Positions 11,879-29,471 of a stretch of 32,957 nucleotides of DNA are shown piece by piece. The translations under genes and the position numbers were made by a program. Below the pieces are notes generated by a model that worked only from the letters and a program-made list of their open reading frames with translations, was not told the origin of the DNA and did not search any database. How positions within the stretch are numbered: the first letter of the stretch is position 1; each line of letters starts with the position of its first letter. The DNA is from Xanthobacteraceae bacterium. GTDB taxonomy: Bacteria; Pseudomonadota; Alphaproteobacteria; Rhizobiales; Xanthobacteraceae. The DNA lies in NCBI GenBank assembly GCA_030038995.1, contig JASHQS010000300.1:1-32957 (forward strand), given 5' to 3'.

Positions 11879-12840
11879 CAGAAATAGCCCTCGCGCTTTT
11901 TTTTCTCCATCGAGGCAACTTCATCAGTGTCGATCAGGCGGCCTTGCCGCTCCGACGTGCGGGCGGTCTGCAGCTCGGCGATAATATCGTCGATCGAAGC
12001 GGCCTGCGATTCGATCGCGGCGGTGAGCGGATAGCAGCCAAGGGTACGGAAGCGGACGCGCCGCAACTGCGGCCGCTCGCCGGGCCGCAGCGGCAGGCGG
12101 TCGTCATCGACCATGATCCATGCGCCATCGCGCTCGACCACCGGCCGCTCGGCCGCAAAGTAGAGCGGCACGACCGCAATGTTTTCCGATCGGATATATT
12201 GCCAGACGTCCAGTTCGGTCCAGTTCGACAGCGGGAATACCCGGATCGACTCGCCTTCGTTGATGCGGGTGTTGAACAGGTTCCACAGTTCGGGGCGCTG
12301 GTTGCGGGGATCCCAGGCGTGGCCGCGCGAACGGAACGAAAAGATGCGTTCCTTGGCGCGGCTCTTTTCCTCGTCGCGCCGCGCGCCGCCGAAGGCGGCA
12401 TCGAAGCCGAACTGGTCGAGCGCCTGCTTCAGCGCCTCCGTCTTCATCACGCGCGTGTACGGAGCGGATCCCGAGGTCAGCGGATGCATGCCGGCGGCGA
12501 GGCCCTCGCGGTTGACGTGGACGATGAGCTTGACGCCCAGCCGCCGCGCGGTAGCGTCGCGGAACGCGATCATGTCGCGGAACTTCCAGGTCGTGTCGAT
12601 GTGCAGCAGCGGAAACGGCGGCGGCGCCGGATAGAAGGCCTTCACGGCAAGGTGCAGCATCACGCTGGAGTCCTTGCCGATCGAATAGAGCATCACCGGA
12701 TGCTTCAGCTCCGCCACCACCTCGCGCATGATCTCGATCGATTCGGCCTCGAGCCGCCTCAAGTGCGAAGGCATAGCGTGGCGGCTGCCGGCCCCAGCGA
12801 GGTTGTCGGGCGCCTGAAGGTCCATGACAAAGCTTAGCAC
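11878..12840 (-). CDS. cysD: CysD: sulfate adenylyltransferase subunit 2
   Basis: Catalytic small subunit of ATP sulfurylase, acting with CysN to form APS. About 320 residues of the PAPS reductase/ATP pyrophosphatase fold: [18 protein letters not shown], the PP-loop [11 protein letters not shown] (53-59), [49 protein letters not shown]-like and [13 protein letters not shown] are all present. The start is uncertain: 12840, ATG 12825 and ATG 12774 ([12 protein letters not shown], closest to the usual family start) are possible and none has a strong ribosome site. It is the first gene of the cysD-cysNC pair. The region upstream has a GGCTGTGG/CCACAGCC dyad (12898-12948) and then an IS remnant. 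Confidence 0.95.
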
Positions 12841-12897
12841 GCGGACGGCTGCAGCGACAGGCGGACCGCGGCGGACCGCGGACCGCTGCGGCCGGGC

Positions 12898-12948
12898 GGC
12901 TGTGGATTCGTGGACGACGCAACAGCGTTGCCCACAAGCCCCACAGCC
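12898..12948. repeat. Nested inverted repeats upstream of cysD
   Basis: GGCTGTGG (12898-12905) pairs with CCACAGCC (12941-12948). Inside lies a small hairpin, GCAAC-AGC-GTTGC. It could be a regulatory leader of cysDNC or the outer end of the damaged IS next to it. A short tandem of GCGGACCGCG occurs just before it (12861-12880). Confidence 0.35.
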
Positions 12949-13110
12949 GCAGCAGCAGAAGCGGACAATATGATGTGCTGCAAACCGCGGACATCCTCAC
13001 GCGCTACCGACGGCGTGTTAGCGGAGGTCGGCGAACAAACGCGAGGTCGCTGGCGAAGGGAGTGGAATCCAATTCTTTCGAATTCTTCCTTGTATTCAAA
13101 AGGATAGTAA

Positions 13111-13244
13111 CGCCAATTTGCGAAACACTTCCCGAGATGCCGTCTCAGTTCTCCGTACAGCGTCTTTCTGCGATACTTGGGAATGAACACTACGTGATAT
13201 TTGCACTCCCACTTCGTGTGGCTTAGGCTCTCGTAATCGTCCAT
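13111..13244 (-). pseudogene. IS200/IS605-type transposase (TnpA, Y1) remnant
   Basis: The first 38-40 residues from ATG 13244 (MDDYESLSHTKWECKYHVVF, then IPKYRRKTLYGELRRHLG) are the well-known N-terminus of IS200-family TnpA, including the HVVF segment of the HUH relaxase fold. At 13131-13133 the frame breaks: one G appears to be missing from a G run, and the continuation EVFRKLA is found in the next frame. Homology ends at about 13111, so the catalytic HUH pair and tyrosine are gone. AGGAGAG precedes the start. The remnant separates cysD from the Liv operon and marks an old insertion and deletion point. Confidence 0.82.
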
Positions 13245-16946: not shown

Positions 16947-18263
16947 TCAGATGATCGGCTCCATCTCGCCGCCAACCGGGATCGCCGGAAAGGTGCGGTT
17001 TTCGGTGATGACGAGATCGTACTTATTGCCGCCCCGCAATCGCCATTGGCCGCCGACAAGTGGTGTCTTGGCGACATTCTTGGCCGCAAATGGCGGTAGA
17101 TTCGCGCCGTTCCACTGAATGTGGCCGACCACGGTGTCGAGGTTGGTGCCTCTGATGGCCTCCACGATCGCGTCGGCGTCACCCCGCTGCGGCGTGCGCT
17201 TCAGTACATCGACGGCAATCTCGAACAGTGCGTGCACAAAGCCGATCGGCTGCGTCCATTGCTTGTTGGACGCGCTCTCGTAGGCTCCGGCGAGCGCCTT
17301 CGCTGTCATGCCGTTGAGCGAGGATTTGAATGGATGGTTCGGCGTCCACCAGATTTCCGACGACAGATTGTTACCGTCGTGGCCCAAGGCCTCGACCGAG
17401 CTTGGAAACAGGATGGCTTTGCCAATCGATGCGACCTTGGGCTTGAAGTTTTGCTGCAGCGCCTGCTTCCAGAACGTGGTGAAGTCGGGCGGTATCATGA
17501 CGCCAGTGATGATCTCACACTTCGCCGATTTGAACGCGGCAAGTTGCGCGGAAAAATCGTCGGTGAGATCCTGATAGCGCCCTGGATCGGTGAGCTTGTA
17601 GCCGAGCTTGCCGAGCACTGGCGGAAAACCGACGACCTTGTCGCCCCAGGCGTTGCCATCGCCGTCGTTGGGGAAGAGGCCGCCCACGGACTTGTTGGTC
17701 GATACCCCGCCCCACATGGTGGTGTACACGGCGATCACGTCTTCGAGGCCCCAGAAGAAGAGGTAGGTGTAGTTGAACGGCTTCCACGCCGACGGTCCGC
17801 CGGTCGGATTGGCTTGGCGCCCGATGAACCAGGACTGCCAGGGCGCCACCGAGGAGATGCACGGCACTTCCTCGATTTCGCATTGGGTCGAAACCGGGTT
17901 CGTCGTCTCCGGCGTCGAGGCGACCAGCATCAGGTCGATCTTGTCCTGAACGATGAGGTCTTTGGCGACCGCGGCGGCGCGGTTCGGGTTGGACTGGCTG
18001 TCCCTGACCAGGACTTCGACCGGCACCATTGCATTGCCGACCTTGATACCGCCCTTCGTGGCGTTCTTGAAATTGCCGACGATGAAATTATCGGCCTCGG
18101 CAAAGGCCGCGAGCGGCCCGGTTTGCGGGCTGACATAGCCGAGCTTGATCGGTTTCTGCTGCGCGATCGCCGGCGACTCGACGCCGGCGGCAAGAGCGGC
18201 GCCGCTCGCGGCGGAATACTGCAGCAGCGCGCGGCGATTGATTCCACGGGTGTATTTTTTCAT
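16947..18263 (-). CDS. Tat-signal ABC transporter substrate-binding protein, operon 1
   Basis: Periplasmic type I binding protein (Peripla_BP_6/LivK family) of 438 residues, first gene of Liv operon 1. ATG 18263 has GGAGG 7-8 nt upstream and opens with MKKYTRGINRRALLQYSAAS, a twin-arginine-like signal ending near residue 36. The mature part starts KPIKLGYVSPQTGPLAAFAEAD, then shows DKIDLMLVASTPETTNPVSTQCE and MWGGVSTNKSVGGLFPNDGDGNAWGD. The second operon's binding protein has the same plan and nearly the same motifs, so the two are paralogues. The promoter holds a pair of candidate IclR operators (18328-18361) shared with the divergent regulator, suggesting control by that protein. Confidence 0.93.
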   Translation of the reverse strand: MKKYTRGINRRALLQYSAASGAALAAGVESPAIAQQKPIKLGYVSPQTGPLAAFAEADNFIVGNFKNATKGGIKVGNAMVPVEVLVRDSQSNPNRAAAVAKDLIVQDKIDLMLVASTPETTNPVSTQCEIEEVPCISSVAPWQSWFIGRQANPTGGPSAWKPFNYTYLFFWGLEDVIAVYTTMWGGVSTNKSVGGLFPNDGDGNAWGDKVVGFPPVLGKLGYKLTDPGRYQDLTDDFSAQLAAFKSAKCEIITGVMIPPDFTTFWKQALQQNFKPKVASIGKAILFPSSVEALGHDGNNLSSEIWWTPNHPFKSSLNGMTAKALAGAYESASNKQWTQPIGFVHALFEIAVDVLKRTPQRGDADAIVEAIRGTNLDTVVGHIQWNGANLPPFAAKNVAKTPLVGGQWRLRGGNKYDLVITENRTFPAIPVGGEMEPII

Positions 18264-18327
18264 TGGTGCGTCCTCCCGAATCCCCGCCGCCCGGCTCCGC
18301 GGCCGGACTTGACGACGGAGCCGTCTT

Positions 18328-18361
18328 GTTCGATATTCGAACGAGCGTTCGTTATCCGAAA
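18328..18361. promoter_or_regulatory. Paired candidate IclR operators, iclR-type gene/binding-protein promoter
   Basis: Site A GTTCGATATTCGAAC (18328-18342) is a perfect 6-3-6 palindrome. Site B GTTCGTTATCCGAAA (18347-18361) has one mismatch to GTTCG-N5-CGAAC. Their centres are 19 bp apart. Between and overlapping them is another perfect dyad, CGAACG-AG-CGTTCG. Site B ends 20 nt before the regulator ATG (18382), and site A lies 64 nt upstream of the binding-protein ATG on the other strand. The same arrangement recurs at 19266-19299. Confidence 0.7.
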
Positions 18362-18381
18362 CAGTCTCCGCCACAGCATCC

Positions 18382-19203
18382 ATGGAGTCAATGGCTCGCC
18401 GCAAACGTCCGATGGCCGCTTCCGCCGCGCGACCGCACCATCGCGACGACAAGGAATTCATGACGACGCTGGCCAAGGGCCTCGCCGTGCTCGCAGCATT
18501 CGGACGCGAGCACCAGACCATGACCTTGTCCGAAGCCGCGCAGATTGCGAGCCTGTCGCGCGCCGCGGCGCGGCGCGTGCTGCGGACATTGACCGCGCTG
18601 GGCTATGTCGACCAGAACGGCCATGTGTTCTCGCTGTCACCGCGCTCCGTGGAGTTCGGCTTTGCTTATCTGTCGACGCAAAACTGGGTCGACCGCGCGA
18701 CGCCGCTGCTGAGGGATTTGAGCAGCCGGCTGGACGAGTCCTGCTCGGCGGCAATCCTCCGTGGCGCCGAAATCGTCTACGTCGCGCGCGTCACGGCACG
18801 GCGCATCTTGTCGACGGTGCTTGCGGTTGGCAGCTGTTTGCCGGCATTTCATACAGCTTTGGGCCGTGCTCAATTAGGTTTTCTCGATGATGCCGAAATC
18901 TGGCGCCGGCTGATGGCGCTGCGGATCGAGGCCTATACGCCCTATACCATCACGGACGTGCACGCCCTGTTCGTTCGCGTGCGCGAAGACAAGGAGCAGG
19001 GATTTTCGATCGTCGATGAAGAACTCGAGCGCGGGTTGCGCGCAATTGCCGTCCCGATCCTCAATGGCTCGGGTCAGGCGATCGCAGCCGTCAACCTCTC
19101 GACCCACAGCACCCGCACGACCAGAAACGAAATGCGGGACAAATTTTTTCCCGAGCTGCAACAGATCGCCCGGCAACTCTCGGCCTCGCTGGCGCCCCGT
19201 TAA
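18382..19203 (+). CDS. IclR-family transcriptional regulator (PcaR/PobR-like)
   Basis: Cytoplasmic regulator of 273 residues. An N-terminal winged helix (about 28-90; [24 protein letters not shown], then [20 protein letters not shown]) is followed by an effector domain (about 100-270) with [27 protein letters not shown] and [26 protein letters not shown]. The length and features fit the PcaR/PobR/CatR group that controls aromatic degradation. ATG 18382 is the first start; ATG 18391 (MARRKRP), preceded by GGAG, is an alternative. It is divergent from the Liv operon 1 binding protein and upstream of the HpaB-type monooxygenase. Candidate operators occur before all three. The effector is not known; autoregulation is inferred. 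Confidence 0.94.
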
Positions 19204-19210
19204 AGCGGCC

Positions 19211-19226
19211 GCGGTCACAGGACCGC
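19211..19226 (+). terminator. Possible terminator after the IclR-type gene
   Basis: GCGGTC-ACAG-GACCGC forms a perfect 6-bp stem starting 8 nt after the regulator stop, with only a weak pyrimidine tail (CTCTTG). It may separate the regulator from the monooxygenase gene, which has its own operator-bearing promoter. Confidence 0.35.
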
Positions 19227-19265
19227 CTCTTGCCACCGCCGGCATCCAACCGGTATCGTTACTTA

Positions 19266-19299
19266 GTTCGAAATACGGACAGTTGTTCGAAAATCGAAC
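19266..19299. promoter_or_regulatory. Paired candidate IclR operators before the monooxygenase gene
   Basis: GTTCGAAATACGGAC (19266-19280, one mismatch) and GTTCGAAAATCGAAC (19285-19299, perfect; the palindrome extends to TTGTTCGA-AAA-TCGAACAA). The centres are 19 bp apart and the second site ends exactly 20 nt before the ATG at 19320, the same geometry as upstream of the regulator gene. The position next to the ribosome site suggests repression, or activation from a shifted start; the sequence cannot decide. Confidence 0.7.
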
Positions 19300-19319: not shown

Positions 19320-20945
19320 ATGGCGGCAAAGGTGCAACAGCAGCGCAAGCCGGTCACCGCAGCGTCGGCCGAGCCCATCGGCAAGGCCAAAGTCGATCGT
19401 CCGCAAAACGGCAAGGAATATCTCGACTCATTGCGCGACGATCGCACCATTTTCATCTATGGCGAGCGGGTCAAGGATGTCACCAAGCATCCGGCCTTTC
19501 GCAATACTGCGCGGATGGTCGCCCGCCTCTATGACGCGCTGCACGACGAGAAACGCAAGCACAAGCTCTTGCTGCCGACCGAAACCGGCAACGGCGGCGT
19601 GACGCACGCCTTCTTCAAAGCACCCAAGACGGCAAAAGAATTGCTTGCCGGACGTGACGCAATCGCCGAATGGGCCAAAATCACCTACGGCTGGCTGGGC
19701 CGCTCGCCCGACTACAAGGCGGCCTTTCTGGCGACGCTCGGCGCCAATGCCGAGTTCTATGATCCGTATCAGGATAATGCGAAGCGCTGGTACAAGTTCA
19801 GCCAGGAGCGTGTTCCGTTCGTCAATCACGCCATCATTCATCCGCCGATCGATCGCGACCGGCCGCCGAACGAAGTTACCGATGTTTGCTGCCATGTCGA
19901 AAAGGAGACCGACGCCGGGCTTATTGTCTCCGGCGCCAAAGTGGTGGCCACCGGTTCGGTGCTGACCAACTTCACCTTTGTCGCCCATCACGGGCTCATC
20001 CCCGTGCAGGACAAGAAATTCGCCGTCGTCTTCATCGTTCCGACCAGCGCGCGCGGCGTCAAATTCATCTGCCGCGCCTCCTACGAGATGACTTCGACGG
20101 CCATGGGCAGTCCGTTCGACTATCCGTTATCCAGCCGGCTCGATGAAAACGACGCAGTCTTCATCCTGGACAAGGTCCTGGTGCCTTGGGAGAACGTATT
20201 CGTCTACGGCGATATGGAGAAGGCGAACAATTTTTTCCCACGCACCGGTTTCCTGCCACGTTTCGTCGTGCACGGCTGCACTCGCCTCGCAGTGAAGCTC
20301 GATTTCATTTCCGGGCTTCTGCTGAAGGCGACGGAAGCCGCCGGCACCAAGGACTATCGGGGGGTACAGGCTAATGTCGGCGAGGTCATCGCCTGGCGCA
20401 ACCTGTTCTGGGGGTTGTCGGACGCAATGGTGCGCGATCCGAAACCGTGGATTGGCGAGTATCTGTTGCCGAACATGGATCCGGGCAACGCCTATCAGAT
20501 CATCGCCACTATGGCCTATACGCGCGTCAAACATCTGATCGAGCAGACGGTGGCATCAGGGCTGATTTATCTGAATAGTCATGCGCGCGATTTCAAAAGC
20601 GAGGAGATCAGGCCCTATCTCGACCGATATCTGCGCGGTTCGAACGGCTACAAGGCCGAGGAGCGAGTCAAGCTCCTCAAGCTGTTGTGGGATTGCATCG
20701 CCAGCGAATTCGGCGGCCGGCACGAGCTTTACGAGATCAATTATGGCGGTTCGACTGAGGAAATCCGCCGCTATTGTTTGTTCGGCGCCATGGCTTCGGG
20801 CAACGCCAGCAAGTTCAAGGGTTTCGCTGAAGATTGTATGGCCGAATACGATTTGAACGGCTGGCGAGTCCCGGATCTCAGCGATCCGGGCGAATTGAGC
20901 TATCACGTCCTGCGCGGCGACGGTCGCCATTCTTCAAGTAGGTAA
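19320..20945 (+). CDS. 4-hydroxyphenylacetate 3-hydroxylase-family (HpaB-like) FADH2-dependent monooxygenase
   Basis: Large oxygenase component of a two-component flavin monooxygenase, expected to hydroxylate a phenolic or related ring using FADH2 from a separate reductase. The 541 residues fit HpaB/PvcC-type proteins (about 480-550). Visible: [22 protein letters not shown] at the N-terminus, [43 protein letters not shown] (substrate and flavin region), [15 protein letters not shown]-like, [11 protein letters not shown], and the C-terminal [26 protein letters not shown] 19320 follows GAGGAGGAG with 7-nt spacing. No HpaC-type reductase is in the window. Candidate IclR operators sit directly upstream. 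Some relatives are acyl-CoA dehydratases (4-hydroxybutyryl-CoA) or biosynthetic enzymes, so 4-hydroxyphenylacetate is not proven as substrate. Confidence 0.9.
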
Positions 20946-20977: not shown

Positions 20978-21097
20978 CTATGCGCGCAAACCGCCGTCCG
21001 CCATCAAGAGGCCGCCGGTTGTGAAAGCGCTGGCGTCCGAGGCGAGAAACAGCACGGAACGCGCCACTTCCTCGGCGCGGACGTGGCGCTCGAGGTT
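20978..21097 (-). pseudogene. Short-chain dehydrogenase C-terminal remnant
   Basis: About 40 residues ending at a TAG (20978-20980) read LNLERHVRAEEVARSVLFLA then SDASAFTTGGLLMADGGLRA, the standard end of a classical SDR (VARxVLFLASDxSxFxTG, xVDGG). The rest of the enzyme (NAD motif and catalytic Tyr-Lys) is absent: upstream sequence is the LivM gene in another frame. The piece therefore looks like the surviving 3' end of a gene that once followed LivM and was removed by deletion. It now ends 32 bp from the convergent monooxygenase stop. Confidence 0.82.
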
Positions 21098-24500: not shown

Positions 24501-25841
24501 TCATCTATAGGGCTTTAGCTTAGCACCAATCGGCACATTGGGGTCATCGGCGTTATCGACGATCACCATGTCGAGCTTGTACTTGCTGCCCGGCTTGGCC
24601 TTGATCCATTGCGCGCCGATGAGCGGCGTCGTCGAAACGTGCGGCACCGGGCCGTGAGCGAAATCGACGACGCCCACTGCGGTGGTGACCTTGAAAGTGT
24701 TCAGCTTGTCGACCAGCCCCTGCTTGTCCTTCGGGTTGGTCGTCTTGAGCAGCTCGGCGCCGACGTCGAGCAGCGATTGCGTGCCACCAAGCTGCTGGTT
24801 CCATTGCCGCCCAGTGCTCTTCTCATAGCCATCGGCGAGCTCCTGAGAGGAGTGGCCAGTAAGCGGCGACTTGTACGGGAAGGTGGGGTGCCAATAGCAA
24901 AGGCTGGCGACATTGTAACCGAGCGAACCCAGCGCTTCCATCTGTGAGGGGAACAAGCCGGTTTTGGCGATGCTCTGAATCTTGACGGTCCTGGCCAGAC
25001 CAAGCTGTGCGGCTTGCCGCCAGAACACGGCGAAATCGGGCGGCAGCGGCACGCCGGTGAAGATTTGCACTCCAGCTTGCTTGTATTTCGCGATCTGCGC
25101 CGAGTAGTCGGTAGTGCCGTCTTCGTATCCGCCCGGATCGAATACCGTGAAGCCCGCCTTTTCGAACAGCGGGATCATGTGCTCCCGCAATGCGTTGCCG
25201 TCGGCATCGTTCGGGAACATGACCCCGACCTTCTTATTGGTCGGGAATGGCGCCTTGCTCCATTCGGAAATGTAGGCCTGGGCGAACTGGGCGACGCCGA
25301 AGGAGAAGTGGAAGCTCCACTTGAACGGAAACGGCTTCTCGCCTGGTTTGCCGCCGCGGCCGAAATACCAGGACTCCCAGGGCAGGATGGTGGACACGCA
25401 CGGTATGCCGGCTGCGTCGCAGGCGTCGGCGACCGGGTTGACCACTTCGGGAGTCGAGGTGGTCAGCATCAGATCGATCTTGTCATCGTTGATGAGCGCC
25501 TTGGCCAGCTGGCTGGCGCGGGCAGGATCCGATTGCGAATCGCGGTCGATAATCTCGATCTTGTACGTCCTGCCGCCTGAGCTGAGGCCGTTGGCGAGCG
25601 CCTTGCGCGCCAAGCCGAGCACATACGGGTCGCTTTCGCCGAACCCGCCCAGTGGTCCGGTGCGCGGACTGACAAAGCCGATCTTGACCACGTCGCTCGC
25701 TTGGGCAAAAGCCGACGGAACTTTTCCGGCGAGCGCAAGGCCGCCCGCGCTCGCCGCAGCGCGCTTGACGAAATCGCGCCGCGATACGCCGACTTTGGGG
25801 GCTAATGGTTTCCAGGTTTCAGTCCGGTTGCTCGACTTCAT
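24501..25841 (-). CDS. Tat-signal ABC transporter substrate-binding protein, operon 2
   Basis: Periplasmic type I binding protein (Peripla_BP_6/LivK family) of 446 residues and first gene of Liv operon 2. ATG 25841 follows GGAGGGAG. The N-terminal signal contains VSRRDFVKRAAASAGGLALA, an almost ideal twin-arginine motif, ending FAQ near residue 47. The mature chain begins SDVVKIGFVSPRTGPLGGFGESD and contains DKIDLMLTTSTPEVVNPVADACD and TNKKVGVMFPNDADGNALR, closely parallel to the operon 1 protein. A 15-bp palindrome (25964-25978) lies 122 nt upstream. Ligand unknown; relatives bind aliphatic amides, aromatic acids or branched amino acids. Confidence 0.94.
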   Translation of the reverse strand: MKSSNRTETWKPLAPKVGVSRRDFVKRAAASAGGLALAGKVPSAFAQASDVVKIGFVSPRTGPLGGFGESDPYVLGLARKALANGLSSGGRTYKIEIIDRDSQSDPARASQLAKALINDDKIDLMLTTSTPEVVNPVADACDAAGIPCVSTILPWESWYFGRGGKPGEKPFPFKWSFHFSFGVAQFAQAYISEWSKAPFPTNKKVGVMFPNDADGNALREHMIPLFEKAGFTVFDPGGYEDGTTDYSAQIAKYKQAGVQIFTGVPLPPDFAVFWRQAAQLGLARTVKIQSIAKTGLFPSQMEALGSLGYNVASLCYWHPTFPYKSPLTGHSSQELADGYEKSTGRQWNQQLGGTQSLLDVGAELLKTTNPKDKQGLVDKLNTFKVTTAVGVVDFAHGPVPHVSTTPLIGAQWIKAKPGSKYKLDMVIVDNADDPNVPIGAKLKPYR

Positions 25842-25963: not shown

Positions 25964-25978
25964 GTTCGCCAAGCGAAC
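25964..25978. promoter_or_regulatory. Candidate operator upstream of the operon 2 binding protein
   Basis: GTTCGC-CAA-GCGAAC is a perfect 6-3-6 palindrome of the same GTTCG-N5-CGAAC form as the sites near the IclR gene. Its complement, extended to 17 bp (25962-25978), matches the site at 26194-26210 in 16 of 17 positions on the opposite strand. The 392-bp divergent gap 25842-26233 holds these two sites, an 11-bp tandem GGAATTCGCCG (26129-26150) and no gene that can be supported. Confidence 0.55.
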
Positions 25979-26193: not shown

Positions 26194-26208
26194 GTTCGCT
26201 TGGCGGAC
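26194..26208. promoter_or_regulatory. Candidate operator upstream of the alcohol dehydrogenase gene
   Basis: GTTCGCTTGGCGGAC, one mismatch from GTTCG-N5-CGAAC, ends 25 nt before the ATG at 26234. It is the inverted near-copy of the site at 25964-25978. The shared form suggests the same regulator, or a relative of it, acts on the second transporter and the dehydrogenase. Confidence 0.55.
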
Positions 26209-26233: not shown

Positions 26234-27355
26234 ATGCCGGCGTCGTCGAATGCCGTAACCGCCGCGGTCGTTCGCCGCAAAGGCGGACCATTCAACATCG
26301 AGACGCTGCAGCTCGAAGCGCCGCGCGCCGACGAGGTCGTGGTGCGTATCGTCGCGACCGGGATGTGTCACACCGACATGGTTGTGCGCGATCAGGTATA
26401 CCCGGTACCGCAGCCGATCGTGCTGGGACACGAGGGTGCCGGCATCGTCGAAAGCGTGGGTGCCGCCGTCACCAAGGTGCAGACCGGCGATCACGTGGTC
26501 CTGAGTTTTTTGCCGTGCGGGCGTTGCCGGCAGTGCCAGGAAGGCCGTCCCGCCAATTGCCTCGACTTCAATGCGCATAATTTCAGCGGCGGGCGCATCG
26601 ACGGCACGCACAGCCTGCGCGACGGCGAGCGGCTGGTGTACGATCATTTCTTCGGCCAGTCGTCGTTCAGCACGCTCGCGCTCGCCCATGAGCGCAATGT
26701 CGTGAAAGTGCGCAAAGACGCACCGCTTGAACTTTTGGGACCGCTCGGCTGCGGCATCCAGACGGGTGCGGGGGCGGTGATGAATTCGCTCAAGGTCGGT
26801 CCTGGTGCGTCCTTCGCGGCGTTCGGCGCCGGCGCGGTCGGATTGAGCGCGGTGATGGCGGCGCGAGCGGTTGGCGCGACCACGATCATCGCCATCGATA
26901 TCGTGCCTGCACGGCTTGCGCTCGCCAAGGAGGTCGGCGCGACGCATGCACTCGATGCCAGGGAGCAAGATCCGGTGGCGGCGATCAAGAAAATCACCGG
27001 CGGCGGAGTTCAGTTCAGCCTTGAAACCACGGCGCTGAGCCCCGTGGTGCGGCAGGCTGTCGACGCGCTCGGCGTGCGCGGCATGTGTGGCATCGTCGGC
27101 GCGGCGCCGCCGGGCACCGAGATCGATCTCGACGTGACCGAGTTCATGCAGATGTCGAAAACGCTCTATGGCATCATCGAGGGCGACAGCGTACCGGACG
27201 TATTCATCCCTCGGTTGATCGACCTCCATTTGCAAGGCCGCTTTCCGTTCGACCGGTTGACGAAATTCTATCCGCTCGACCGCATCAACGAGGCGGCACG
27301 TGACAGCGAACGCGGGCTCACGGTCAAGCCGATCATTCGCATCGGCAAGCTCTGA
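26234..27355 (+). CDS. Zinc-dependent aryl-alcohol-type dehydrogenase (NAD-binding MDR family)
   Basis: Cytoplasmic medium-chain alcohol dehydrogenase of 373 residues, closest in appearance to benzyl/aryl-alcohol dehydrogenases (XylB type), oxidising an alcohol to an aldehyde with NAD. Catalytic zinc ligands C45 (GMCHTD), H66-E67 (GHEGAG) and C173 (LGCGIQTGAGAV) are present. Structural zinc cysteines C95, C98, C101 and C109 lie in PCGRCRQCQEGRPANC. The Rossmann motif GAGAVG (198-203) is followed by acidic D222, consistent with NAD preference. ATG 26234 follows AGGGAGAG. It is divergent from transporter operon 2, convergent with the aldehyde dehydrogenase, and has a candidate operator 25 nt upstream. 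The aldehyde product may go to that enzyme; this is inference. Confidence 0.92.
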   Translation: MPASSNAVTAAVVRRKGGPFNIETLQLEAPRADEVVVRIVATGMCHTDMVVRDQVYPVPQPIVLGHEGAGIVESVGAAVTKVQTGDHVVLSFLPCGRCRQCQEGRPANCLDFNAHNFSGGRIDGTHSLRDGERLVYDHFFGQSSFSTLALAHERNVVKVRKDAPLELLGPLGCGIQTGAGAVMNSLKVGPGASFAAFGAGAVGLSAVMAARAVGATTIIAIDIVPARLALAKEVGATHALDAREQDPVAAIKKITGGGVQFSLETTALSPVVRQAVDALGVRGMCGIVGAAPPGTEIDLDVTEFMQMSKTLYGIIEGDSVPDVFIPRLIDLHLQGRFPFDRLTKFYPLDRINEAARDSERGLTVKPIIRIGKL

Positions 27356-27553: not shown

Positions 27554-28981
27554 TCACATCATCAGATGCGACACGTTCTTCACGACCGTGTAGTGCAAAA
27601 GTCCCTCGGTGCCGCCTTCGCGGCCATAACCGCTATCCTTGACTCCGCCGAATGGGGTCTCGGCGATGGAGGCCACGAGGTTATTGATTGACAAATTGCC
27701 GACCTCGATGCCTTCAGCGAGCCGATCCGCGTTCCGTACCGAACGGGTAAAGGCATAGGCAGCCAAGCCATACGGCAAGGCGTTTGCTTTTTCGATTGCG
27801 TCGTCCAGTGATTTGACAGGGTTGATCAGCGCCAGCGGACCGAATGGCTCCTCGCGCATCGCGCGCGCGTCATCGGGCAAATCGGCGAGCACCGTGAGAG
27901 GATAATAATAACCCCGGTTTCCCAGCCGCTCGCCGCCGGCAAGCAGCCGCGCCCCCTTTGCCTTGGCGTCGGCGACGAACATCTCCATCGCTTCGATGCG
28001 GCGATGGTTGGCAAGCGGCCCCATCTGGTTTGTCGGGTCGAGACCGTCGCCGACCTTCACGGCGCGCGCCTTCTCCGTGAACGCTTCGGTGAATTTGCCG
28101 TAAATCGCGTCTTCGACAAAAAAACGCGTCGGTGACACGCAGACTTGGCCGGCATTACGGGTCTTGCCGGTCACCGAGGTCGCCGCGGTGGCAACGGGAT
28201 CGACGTCGTCGCAGACGATGACAGGCGCGTGACCGCCGAGCTCCATGATGGCGGGTTTCATATGGCGGCCCGCCATTTCGGCGAGGTGTTTCCCGACCGG
28301 AATGGAGCCGGTGAACGTGATCAGACGGATCAGATCCTGTGGAATGAGATATTCGGAGATTTCGGCGGGCTTTCCGAAGACGAGATTGAGCACGCCGGGC
28401 GGCAGGCCGGCATCGTGGAAGGCGCGGACAAGCTGCACGGCGCCAGCCGGTGTTTCCTCCGACGCCTTCAGAATGATCGAGCACCCGGCTGAGAGCGCAC
28501 CACCCACCTTACGGGCCGGCGAACTCATCGGAAAGTTCCATGGTGAAAAGGCCGCGCCCACGCCGATCGGCTGGCGCAACACCATGTGCTTCATTCCGGG
28601 CTCGCTCGGGATGACGCGGCCATAGACGCGCCGGCCCTCCGAAGCGTCCCACTCGATGATCTCGCAACCGCGCAGGATTTCGAGCCGCGACTGCGCGATC
28701 GGCTTACCCTGTTCCAAGGTCATGGCTACTGCCATCTCTTCGACCCGTTGGCGCATCAGCGCCACAGCCTTGAGAATGATCTCGGAGCGCTTCAACGGCG
28801 ACGTCCTGCTCCAGACCTTGAAACCTTGTGCAGCGACGGACAGCGCAGCATCGAGATCAGATTGCGTCGCCGTCGGCACGGTGCCGAGCACGCTTTCGTC
28901 GGCCGGATTTAGCACGGGCTGGCCCGGCGCCTTCTTCCACTGGCCACCGATGTAGAGTCCGAGATCAGGATACTGTATCAT
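27554..28981 (-). CDS. NAD(P)-dependent aldehyde dehydrogenase (succinate-semialdehyde dehydrogenase-like)
   Basis: Cytoplasmic ALDH-superfamily enzyme of 475 residues, oxidising an aldehyde to its acid. Features: YIGGQWKKAPGQPVLNPADES near the start, FSPWNFPMSSPARKVGGAL (145-163), FTGSIPVGKHLAEMAG, general base E247 in MELGGHAPVIV and nucleophile C281 in GQVCVSPTRFFV, then EEPFGPLALI, and AETPFGGVKDSGYGREGGTEGL near the end. The pattern is that of the GabD/XylC-related group. ATG 28981 follows AAGAGG. Its first 17 bases overlap the end of the upstream unknown gene, so they are probably co-transcribed. Physiological aldehyde unknown; the adjacent alcohol dehydrogenase is a plausible supplier. 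Confidence 0.93.
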   Translation of the reverse strand: MIQYPDLGLYIGGQWKKAPGQPVLNPADESVLGTVPTATQSDLDAALSVAAQGFKVWSRTSPLKRSEIILKAVALMRQRVEEMAVAMTLEQGKPIAQSRLEILRGCEIIEWDASEGRRVYGRVIPSEPGMKHMVLRQPIGVGAAFSPWNFPMSSPARKVGGALSAGCSIILKASEETPAGAVQLVRAFHDAGLPPGVLNLVFGKPAEISEYLIPQDLIRLITFTGSIPVGKHLAEMAGRHMKPAIMELGGHAPVIVCDDVDPVATAATSVTGKTRNAGQVCVSPTRFFVEDAIYGKFTEAFTEKARAVKVGDGLDPTNQMGPLANHRRIEAMEMFVADAKAKGARLLAGGERLGNRGYYYPLTVLADLPDDARAMREEPFGPLALINPVKSLDDAIEKANALPYGLAAYAFTRSVRNADRLAEGIEVGNLSINNLVASIAETPFGGVKDSGYGREGGTEGLLHYTVVKNVSHLMM

Positions 28982-29471
28982 GGCTTGCCTCTTGAGATTC
29001 GCCCGCGCCAAAAGACGACACGACATACCGGCGATTTTGCTTTCGTGACGGACCCGGCGGGATCAAGGCCGCGGCAATCGCTTCGTGCGTCAACGTCGTT
29101 CTTCGCAGTTCAACCCAATGCTGTTTTGCTCTTCGAATATCGTCGATCTGGCGGGCATAATAATCCAGGCGGGCTTTCCGCACAGAAGACTCGTTTCGCG
29201 GCTTGGCGATGCTACCCAGGTAACGTTCACGGGCGTCCATTGCAAAATAGACGTCGCAAACTGAAACCGCGTTGATCAATTTACCGATGCGGCCGATTCG
29301 CGTCTCCGCTTTGAACAAGCCCCATCCGGCGTGTTCGTAGACGTCCTCGACCTCGACGATGAGGAGGTTTTCGTCGAACAACGCAACCATCATGAAGGCC
29401 AAGTCGTTACGCACGGCTGGGGGCAGCCCGACAAAGAAGAGCTCGAAGGCTTCCAGTATGGTCTCCGACAT
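28965..29471 (-). CDS. Hypothetical protein, unknown family
   Basis: A 168-residue, probably soluble protein that I do not recognise. It starts MSETILEAFELFFVGLPPAV, has a central mixed hydrophobic segment (AFMMVALFDENLLIVEVEDVYEH-like) and a basic helical C-terminal half (RKARLDYYARQIDDIRRAKQHW). There is no signal peptide, clear membrane span or metal motif. ATG 29471 has AAGGT about 10 nt upstream; the frame is open to 29690, and ATG 29663 with AGGA is a possible longer start, but the extra part looks low-complexity. The gene end overlaps the aldehyde dehydrogenase start by 17 bases, so it likely leads that transcription unit. A role as a small accessory or sensor protein would be a guess. 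Confidence 0.65.
   Translation of the reverse strand: MSETILEAFELFFVGLPPAVRNDLAFMMVALFDENLLIVEVEDVYEHAGWGLFKAETRIGRIGKLINAVSVCDVYFAMDARERYLGSIAKPRNESSVRKARLDYYARQIDDIRRAKQHWVELRRTTLTHEAIAAALIPPGPSRKQNRRYVVSSFGAGESQEASHDTVS

Follow-up and report, generated by a model that had tools for sequence, protein, structure and literature searches.

The stretch of DNA analysed here carries the gene for an IclR-type regulator between two pairs of inverted repeats of the pattern GTTCG-N5-CGAAC, and the question that it raises is whether these pairs are operators, which protein would bind them, and with what effect on the regulator gene, the divergent Liv1 transport operon and the neighbouring monooxygenase gene. 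The window, i.e. the whole stretch of 32,957 nucleotides, is the entire contig C234 of the G000 assembly of a Xanthobacteraceae bacterium (4.6 Mb, 316 contigs, 91% complete). The genes that bear on the question are the following.

16947..18263, minus strand: Liv1 periplasmic binding protein (PF13458), first gene of the divergent transport operon
18382..19203, plus strand: IclR-family regulator, PcaR/PcaU/PobR subfamily-like (PF09339, PF01614, TIGR02431)
19320..20945, plus strand: HpaB-type flavin-dependent monooxygenase, oxygenase component (PF11794/PF03241)
24501..25841, minus strand: Liv2 binding protein (second Liv operon)
26234..27355, plus strand: zinc alcohol dehydrogenase
27554..29026, minus strand: aldehyde dehydrogenase

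By its predicted domains the regulator is a member of the IclR family, with both HTH_IclR (PF09339, 50.6 bits against a cutoff of 22) and IclR_C (PF01614, 133.8 bits against a cutoff of 24) present. By far its best-scoring model is TIGR02431 (PcaR/PcaU/PobR; 283.1 bits, just under the cutoff of 284.75), and PcaR (8eju) is its second-best solved chain (190.7 bits). The recognition helix reads SRA(A/T)(A/S)RR in all 24 ortholog loci described below, and the spacing of its Arg residues is that of the critical residues of PobR as listed in PMC8222616, a comparison with that list rather than with an aligned PobR.

The oxygenase scored 687.1 bits against TIGR02310 (HpaB equivalog), below the cutoff of 885.2, and is therefore assigned as an HpaB-type flavin monooxygenase only; its best structural chain is 4oo2 (chlorophenol-4-monooxygenase). 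A two-component monooxygenase needs a flavin reductase, as would be supplied at locus L060 (genus g24) by the flavin reductase-like gene directly 3' of the oxygenase, which is below every model cutoff; no such gene was noticed next to the oxygenase of the window. On the minus strand of the window, 20978-21095, which comes after the Liv2 permease, reads like the C-terminus of a short-chain dehydrogenase and is perhaps a gene remnant, and 12834-13244 looks like the beginning of a transposase-like frame of the IS200 type that continues into unrelated sequence.

The two pairs, which we call operators A and B, consist of the following sites.

18328..18342: operator A, perfect site GTTCGATATTCGAAC, which includes the putative regulator -10 GATATT (18332-18337)
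18347..18361: operator A, weaker site GTTCGTTATCCGAAA, 1 mismatch, adjoining the putative Liv1 -10
19266..19280: operator B, weaker site GTTCGAAATACGGAC, 1 mismatch, just past the putative oxygenase -10
19285..19299: operator B, perfect site GTTCGAAAATCGAAC

An earlier note on this DNA had described GTTCG-N5-CGAAC pairs at 18328/18347 and 19266/19285, and the letters agree with it: each pair is one perfect and one 1-mismatch site, and the centres lie 19 bp apart in both (as do the site starts). That note had also placed the end of each pair exactly 20 nt before a start codon. This holds in the window (ATG at 18382 and 19320) but does not extend to the orthologs, where 4 of 17 loci have exactly 20 nt. 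Plausible in-frame start candidates for the HpaB-type gene lay 13 to 66 nt from the operator in the 17 of 18 loci that gave candidates (L043 gave none), and a few loci also had nearer candidates, 2-17 nt away. A fixed distance to the start codon is thus ruled out as a functional feature, since the distance varies among orthologs.

The rarity of the sites depends strongly on how strictly they are defined. With 17 single sites at up to 2 mismatches, against 30.9 expected, the window shows no enrichment, so that single weak sites mean little. Perfect sites number four in the 4.6-Mb assembly (the backwards pattern has 11), three of which fall in the window, at 18328, 19285 and 25964; the fourth, at G000:C214:2704-2718, is single and unpaired. 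When the assembly was searched with the 34-bp tandem pattern GTTCG-N5-CGAAC-N4-GTTCG-N5-CGAAC at up to 3 mismatches there were two matches, i.e. operators A and B with 1 mismatch each, and none for the backwards control. A three-box search of G000 at up to 1 mismatch gave no targets beyond these two.

The remaining perfect site of the window lies in the Liv2 region.

25964..25978: possible third, single site GTTCGCCAAGCGAAC, perfect, 123 nt upstream of the Liv2 binding-protein start

Among five same-genus Liv2 loci (at least 83% identity) a perfect site 123-126 nt from the Liv2 start was found only in the window (123) and in G005 (126). In the Liv2 region of G009 there are sites at 97 nt (2 mismatches) and at 338 nt (1 mismatch), the regions of G014 and G019 have no site at up to 2 mismatches, and two more distant Liv2 loci (61-65% identity) have no site. 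From this pattern 25964 could tentatively be counted as a third operator, an uncertain member of the set. The interval from the Liv2 binding-protein gene to the alcohol dehydrogenase gene also holds a 1-mismatch site, at 26194-26208; the earlier note had omitted both sites.

We looked at the conservation of the pairs among orthologs of the regulator, which were picked by protein identity alone (at least 57%, E <= 1e-70), with a clear gap to the next homologs at no more than 45%. The set comprises 24 loci including the window, 23 of them from genomes with handles and one a named record. The ortholog is patchily distributed, occurring in 5 of 397 order genomes, 20 of 391 family genomes and 1 of 385 class genomes (the window's own), these samples overlapping. 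Three named records carry the regulator, namely two Xanthobacteraceae MAGs and one labelled Candidatus Binataceae. The last of these (L036), which is included in the counts, has a regulator 79% identical to that of the window together with the same operators, and its contig is possibly mis-binned or transferred. Loci that repeat wide loci, i.e. L035 (contig of L038), L037 (contig of L039) and the narrow loci L006-L016, were counted once, and the thinned counts given below omit six of the seven genus-g24 loci (L063-L068).

A perfect site stands upstream of the regulator in 24/24 loci and before the HpaB-type oxygenase in 18 of the 19 loci that have HpaB downstream. This is the phylogenetic footprint that the earlier note had suggested, and the pairs are conserved in it; the targets proposed there, i.e. 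the regulator itself, the divergent Liv operon 1 and the monooxygenase, also appear to stand, the pairs being conserved before the same genes in orthologous loci. The one exception, L070, has an HpaB-type gene with a promoter-like TTGTCT/TATTGT and loose 2-mismatch matches in place of a perfect operator, a possible loss of control. At the order-level ortholog L062 (G122) the operator faces not a Liv operon but two frames that we take to be CoA-transferase-like (no NCBIfam match at E <= 1e-20), together with pcaF (3-oxoadipyl-CoA thiolase; TIGR02430, 654 against a cutoff of 597).

The partner of the perfect site is also conserved, at a fixed distance. For operator A it lies at exactly +19 with at most 1 mismatch in 16/24 loci and at most 2 in 20/24; L043 and L044, which have lost the outer box, are poor at 4 mismatches, in L045 the partner (2 mismatches) is 18 bp away, and L069 lacks a partner site. 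For operator B the figures are 14/18 and 16/18, L043 and L044 again being poor. In the thinned sets (18 loci for A, 12 for B) the mean partner match at 19 bp was 7.8 (A) and 8.4 (B) of the 10 specified bases, against 0.7-4.8 at other distances between 15 and 30 bp, i.e. a sharp optimum at 19 bp, and on the opposite side of the perfect site these sets gave no peak of partner matching. The conservation of the four boxes in the thinned sets was 0.71, 1.65, 2.0 and 2.0 bits for operator A, in which the outer box nearest the Liv1 promoter (18357-18361) is degenerate, and 1.52, 1.80, 2.0 and 2.0 bits for operator B; because the alignment was anchored on the perfect site the 2.0 bits follow from that choice, while the weaker site was not so chosen.

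The pairs also track the presence of the regulator. Tandem pairs were found in 18, 21 and 22 of the 23 ortholog-bearing genomes at up to 1, 2 and 3 mismatches respectively, compared with 1, 3 and 9 of the 24 genomes in which no ortholog was found; G011 has the ortholog and no tandem pair at up to 3 mismatches. For 18/23 against 1/24 Fisher's test gives p ~1e-7, and a second p-value for the co-occurrence was ~4e-8, relatedness being ignored in both. In the 1-mismatch exception, G022, the pair lies near a contig end and directly before a Liv1-like binding-protein gene, so that the regulator may be missing from the assembly. The 2-mismatch exceptions without an ortholog are G027, where the pair is upstream of a paralog, and G004.

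Paralogs complicate the use of the motif as a marker. In relatives, nearly identical motifs precede the genes of PcaR-type paralogs (examples are found in G056, G027, G005 C225 and G014 C66), and the motif alone therefore cannot single out this regulator; cross-talk between PcaR-type regulators in these relatives is possible. Paralog operators were noted at L106 6364, L107 6811, G005:C225:2052 and G014:C66:8778. Among 18 paralog loci (37-45% identity, 350 nt upstream searched) an 18-22-bp pair was present in 1/18 at up to 2 mismatches and in 5/18 at up to 4, and a single perfect site in 3/18. By this contrast the strict pair is characteristic of this ortholog group, and the motif as such is more widespread. 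When 15 of the 23 genomes with the ortholog were searched for three-box sites (at most 1 mismatch), two extra perfect matches came up (G005 C225 and G014 C66), both upstream of paralogs, together with about ten more 1-mismatch matches in five genomes, which are near chance, as each strand of a genome has 0 to 2 matches to the backwards control. One three-box-like sequence with 1 mismatch, GTTCGGAATGCGAACAATTGTTCT, is common to the genus-g24 genomes G170 (G170:C165:91282) and G753 (G753:C1:5339809), and its location there is a possible further target. In G602 a 1-mismatch tandem pair lies apart from the regulator locus, at G602:C30:34949 (L105 6950).

We then set the pairs against predicted sigma-70-like promoters.

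18363..18391, minus strand: putative Liv1 promoter, -35 TTGACT (18391-18386), 17 bp, -10 GAGACT (18368-18363)
19230..19259, plus strand: putative oxygenase promoter, -35 TTGCCA (19230-19235), 18 bp, -10 TATCGT (19254-19259)
18309..18337, plus strand: putative regulator promoter, -35 TTGACG (18309-18314), 17 bp, -10 GATATT in the perfect site

Read towards its target gene, each pair comes after the predicted promoter: operator A starts 1 nt past the putative -10 of Liv1, with the putative regulator -10 inside it, and operator B starts 6 nt past the putative oxygenase -10. On a scale with a maximum of 12.3, and against shuffles that preserve base composition only, the best score averaged 8.8 on the Liv1 side (24 loci; shuffles 5.9, maximum 6.45 of 200), 8.7 on the oxygenase side (18 loci; shuffles 5.8, maximum 6.62 of 200) and 8.7 for the regulator promoter (24 loci; shuffles 6.8, maximum 7.25 of 200). 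The regulator promoter is the weaker case: its -10 is provided by the operator site, its spacing ranges between 15 and 19 bp among loci, and the L040-L044 group has a poor -35. The start of the regulator is likewise uncertain (ATG at 18382 or the alternative ATG at 18391), since the Liv1 -35 overlaps its proposed first codons; the first N-terminal residues vary among orthologs. The lowest Liv1-side scores belong to L047 (7.2), L069 (6.1) and L070 (5.2), three loci in which we saw no divergent binding-protein gene and no CoA-transferase gene, a contrast that was noticed post hoc and not planned. L069 has a short membrane-protein-like frame at the divergent position, and L046, which is truncated by its contig end, scored 11.3.

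The earlier note had known of no description of the motif, and here it was mistaken: the class GTNCG-N5-6-CGNAC and its tandem arrangement are reported in PMC8222616. As given there (Suvorova and Gelfand 2021), IclR group 1 has the motif GKTYCRYW3-4RYGRAMC or GTNCG-N5-6-CGNAC, tandem sites 18-22 nt apart (mainly 19-21) occur in 94 orthologous groups, paired sites are read as agreeing with tetramer binding, and group 1 targets include aromatic catabolism and transport, among them Liv-type transporter subunits. The sites described here are GTNCG-N5-6-CGNAC palindromes near a regulator, as in the group 1 definition, and the 19-bp pair lies within the tandem definition (centres 18-22 nt apart). 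The main text of PMC8222616 names no Bradyrhizobium, Rhizobiales or monooxygenase, and the regulator was not found in it.

Several individual systems resemble this one. The Pseudomonas putida PcaR site GTTCGATAATCGCAC (PMC12455658; PMC8222616, Table 1) is a near-identical 15-mer whose ATAAT centre also occurs in many of the orthologs, and in the account of PMC12455658 PcaR represses where its box overlaps or follows the -10; the targets here differ, being a Liv transporter and an HpaB-type oxygenase, while the G122 ortholog faces the CoA-transferase-like pair and pcaF. The Corynebacterium glutamicum PcaR site GTTCGC-N3-GCGAAC (PMC8222616, Table 1) has the same symmetric GTTCG-N5-CGAAC core and is fitted letter for letter by the 25964 site, although the host is distant and the likeness is at the level of the site. 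The three-box sites of Acinetobacter baylyi PobR and PcaU, described in PMC8222616 as a palindrome with an external direct repeat of a half-site, recall operator A, where a palindrome and a further half-site come with a degenerate fourth box, but in our case the region past the putative -10 holds a second palindrome that is partly preserved. The IclR repressor PheR, whose core sequence is different, has a reported footprint from -21 to +23 (PMC13273656), so that placement over the start region fits a repressor. Already in print, therefore, are the motif class, the symmetric PcaR core, the P. putida site and tandem sites 18-22 nt apart; the present analysis adds a footprint across the orthologs, the polarity of the promoters and a corrected view of the 20-nt distance.

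The pairs are very likely operators of this regulator, because they are the sole tandem matches in the assembly, are conserved in 24/24 and 18/19 loci and show a sharp 19-bp peak. We hold with good confidence the fuller reading, i.e. that the adjacent PcaR/PobR-type IclR protein would bind both pairs and block three promoters until an effector releases it. In each pair two inverted repeats stand in tandem at a distance of 19 bp, or roughly two turns of the helix, which would place two dimers nearly on one face of the DNA and would suit a dimer of dimers. The bound regulator would block initiation at the Liv1 and oxygenase promoters and at its own, and an aromatic effector or pathway intermediate would release it from the operators; tetramer binding and the class of the effector are what we infer, and the pcaF and CoA-transferase-like frames faced by the G122 operator hint at aromatic or beta-ketoadipate effectors. 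Repression of Liv1 and the oxygenase together with autorepression is the likeliest sign of control, because the sites cover the expected Liv1 and oxygenase starts and the regulator -10 in the predicted promoters.

The regulator might instead activate the oxygenase and Liv1 promoters from the same sites, as PobR does at pobA. PobR and PcaU of Acinetobacter are activators. By its best model (TIGR02431, just under the cutoff) the regulator is probably of the same subfamily as PobR, and the one-sided degeneracy of operator A resembles the three-box sites of PcaU, PobR and HmgR. Accounts in the literature leave room for either sign, with A. tumefaciens PobR inducing pobA and repressing itself (PMC12285266) and the sign of PcaR able to change with promoter architecture (PMC12455658). 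However, at both targets the pair comes after the putative -10 and covers the expected start, where an activator would clash with RNA polymerase, and we regard activation as unlikely. We think it more improbable still that another IclR paralog in the cell binds, or shares, the sites: near-identical motifs do stand upstream of paralogs in relatives, but the occurrence of the pairs follows that of this ortholog group and its targets, and in G000 (91% complete) the sole match to the regulator at E <= 1e-40 is the regulator itself. Exclusive binding by another protein is thus unlikely, while some cross-talk is possible.

Both pairs could fall in the 5' leaders of their genes, and the repeats might then function as small mRNA hairpins in leader control rather than as DNA sites. 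This is very hard to reconcile with one module serving two transcripts in opposite directions, with a fixed 19-bp phase and with a motif of the regulator's own family type. Least credible of all is that the palindromes arose by chance; loose matches are indeed common (the 17 in the window at up to 2 mismatches, a number below expectation), but chance is refuted by the 24/24 and 18/19 conservation with fixed spacing.

Repression by the adjacent regulator, the reading that we prefer, also allows a more speculative extension, to which we give a minority chance. The two operators may be a polarised module, i.e. a -35/-10, a weakened palindrome and, 19 bp on, an invariant palindrome, with the same polarity at two target promoters (one per strand) and the regulator -10 within the invariant palindrome of operator A. 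Shut-off might then be graded, with the regulator silencing itself first via the strong site, and transport and the oxygenase following when the weak site becomes occupied; selection would then keep the outer box weak.

The general picture of the IclR family is unchanged by these operators. The candidate regulon is compact, with only two tandem operators and three promoters in the assembly, and may offer a practical route to learning which substrate the HpaB-type oxygenase and the Liv transporter handle in this alphaproteobacterial group.
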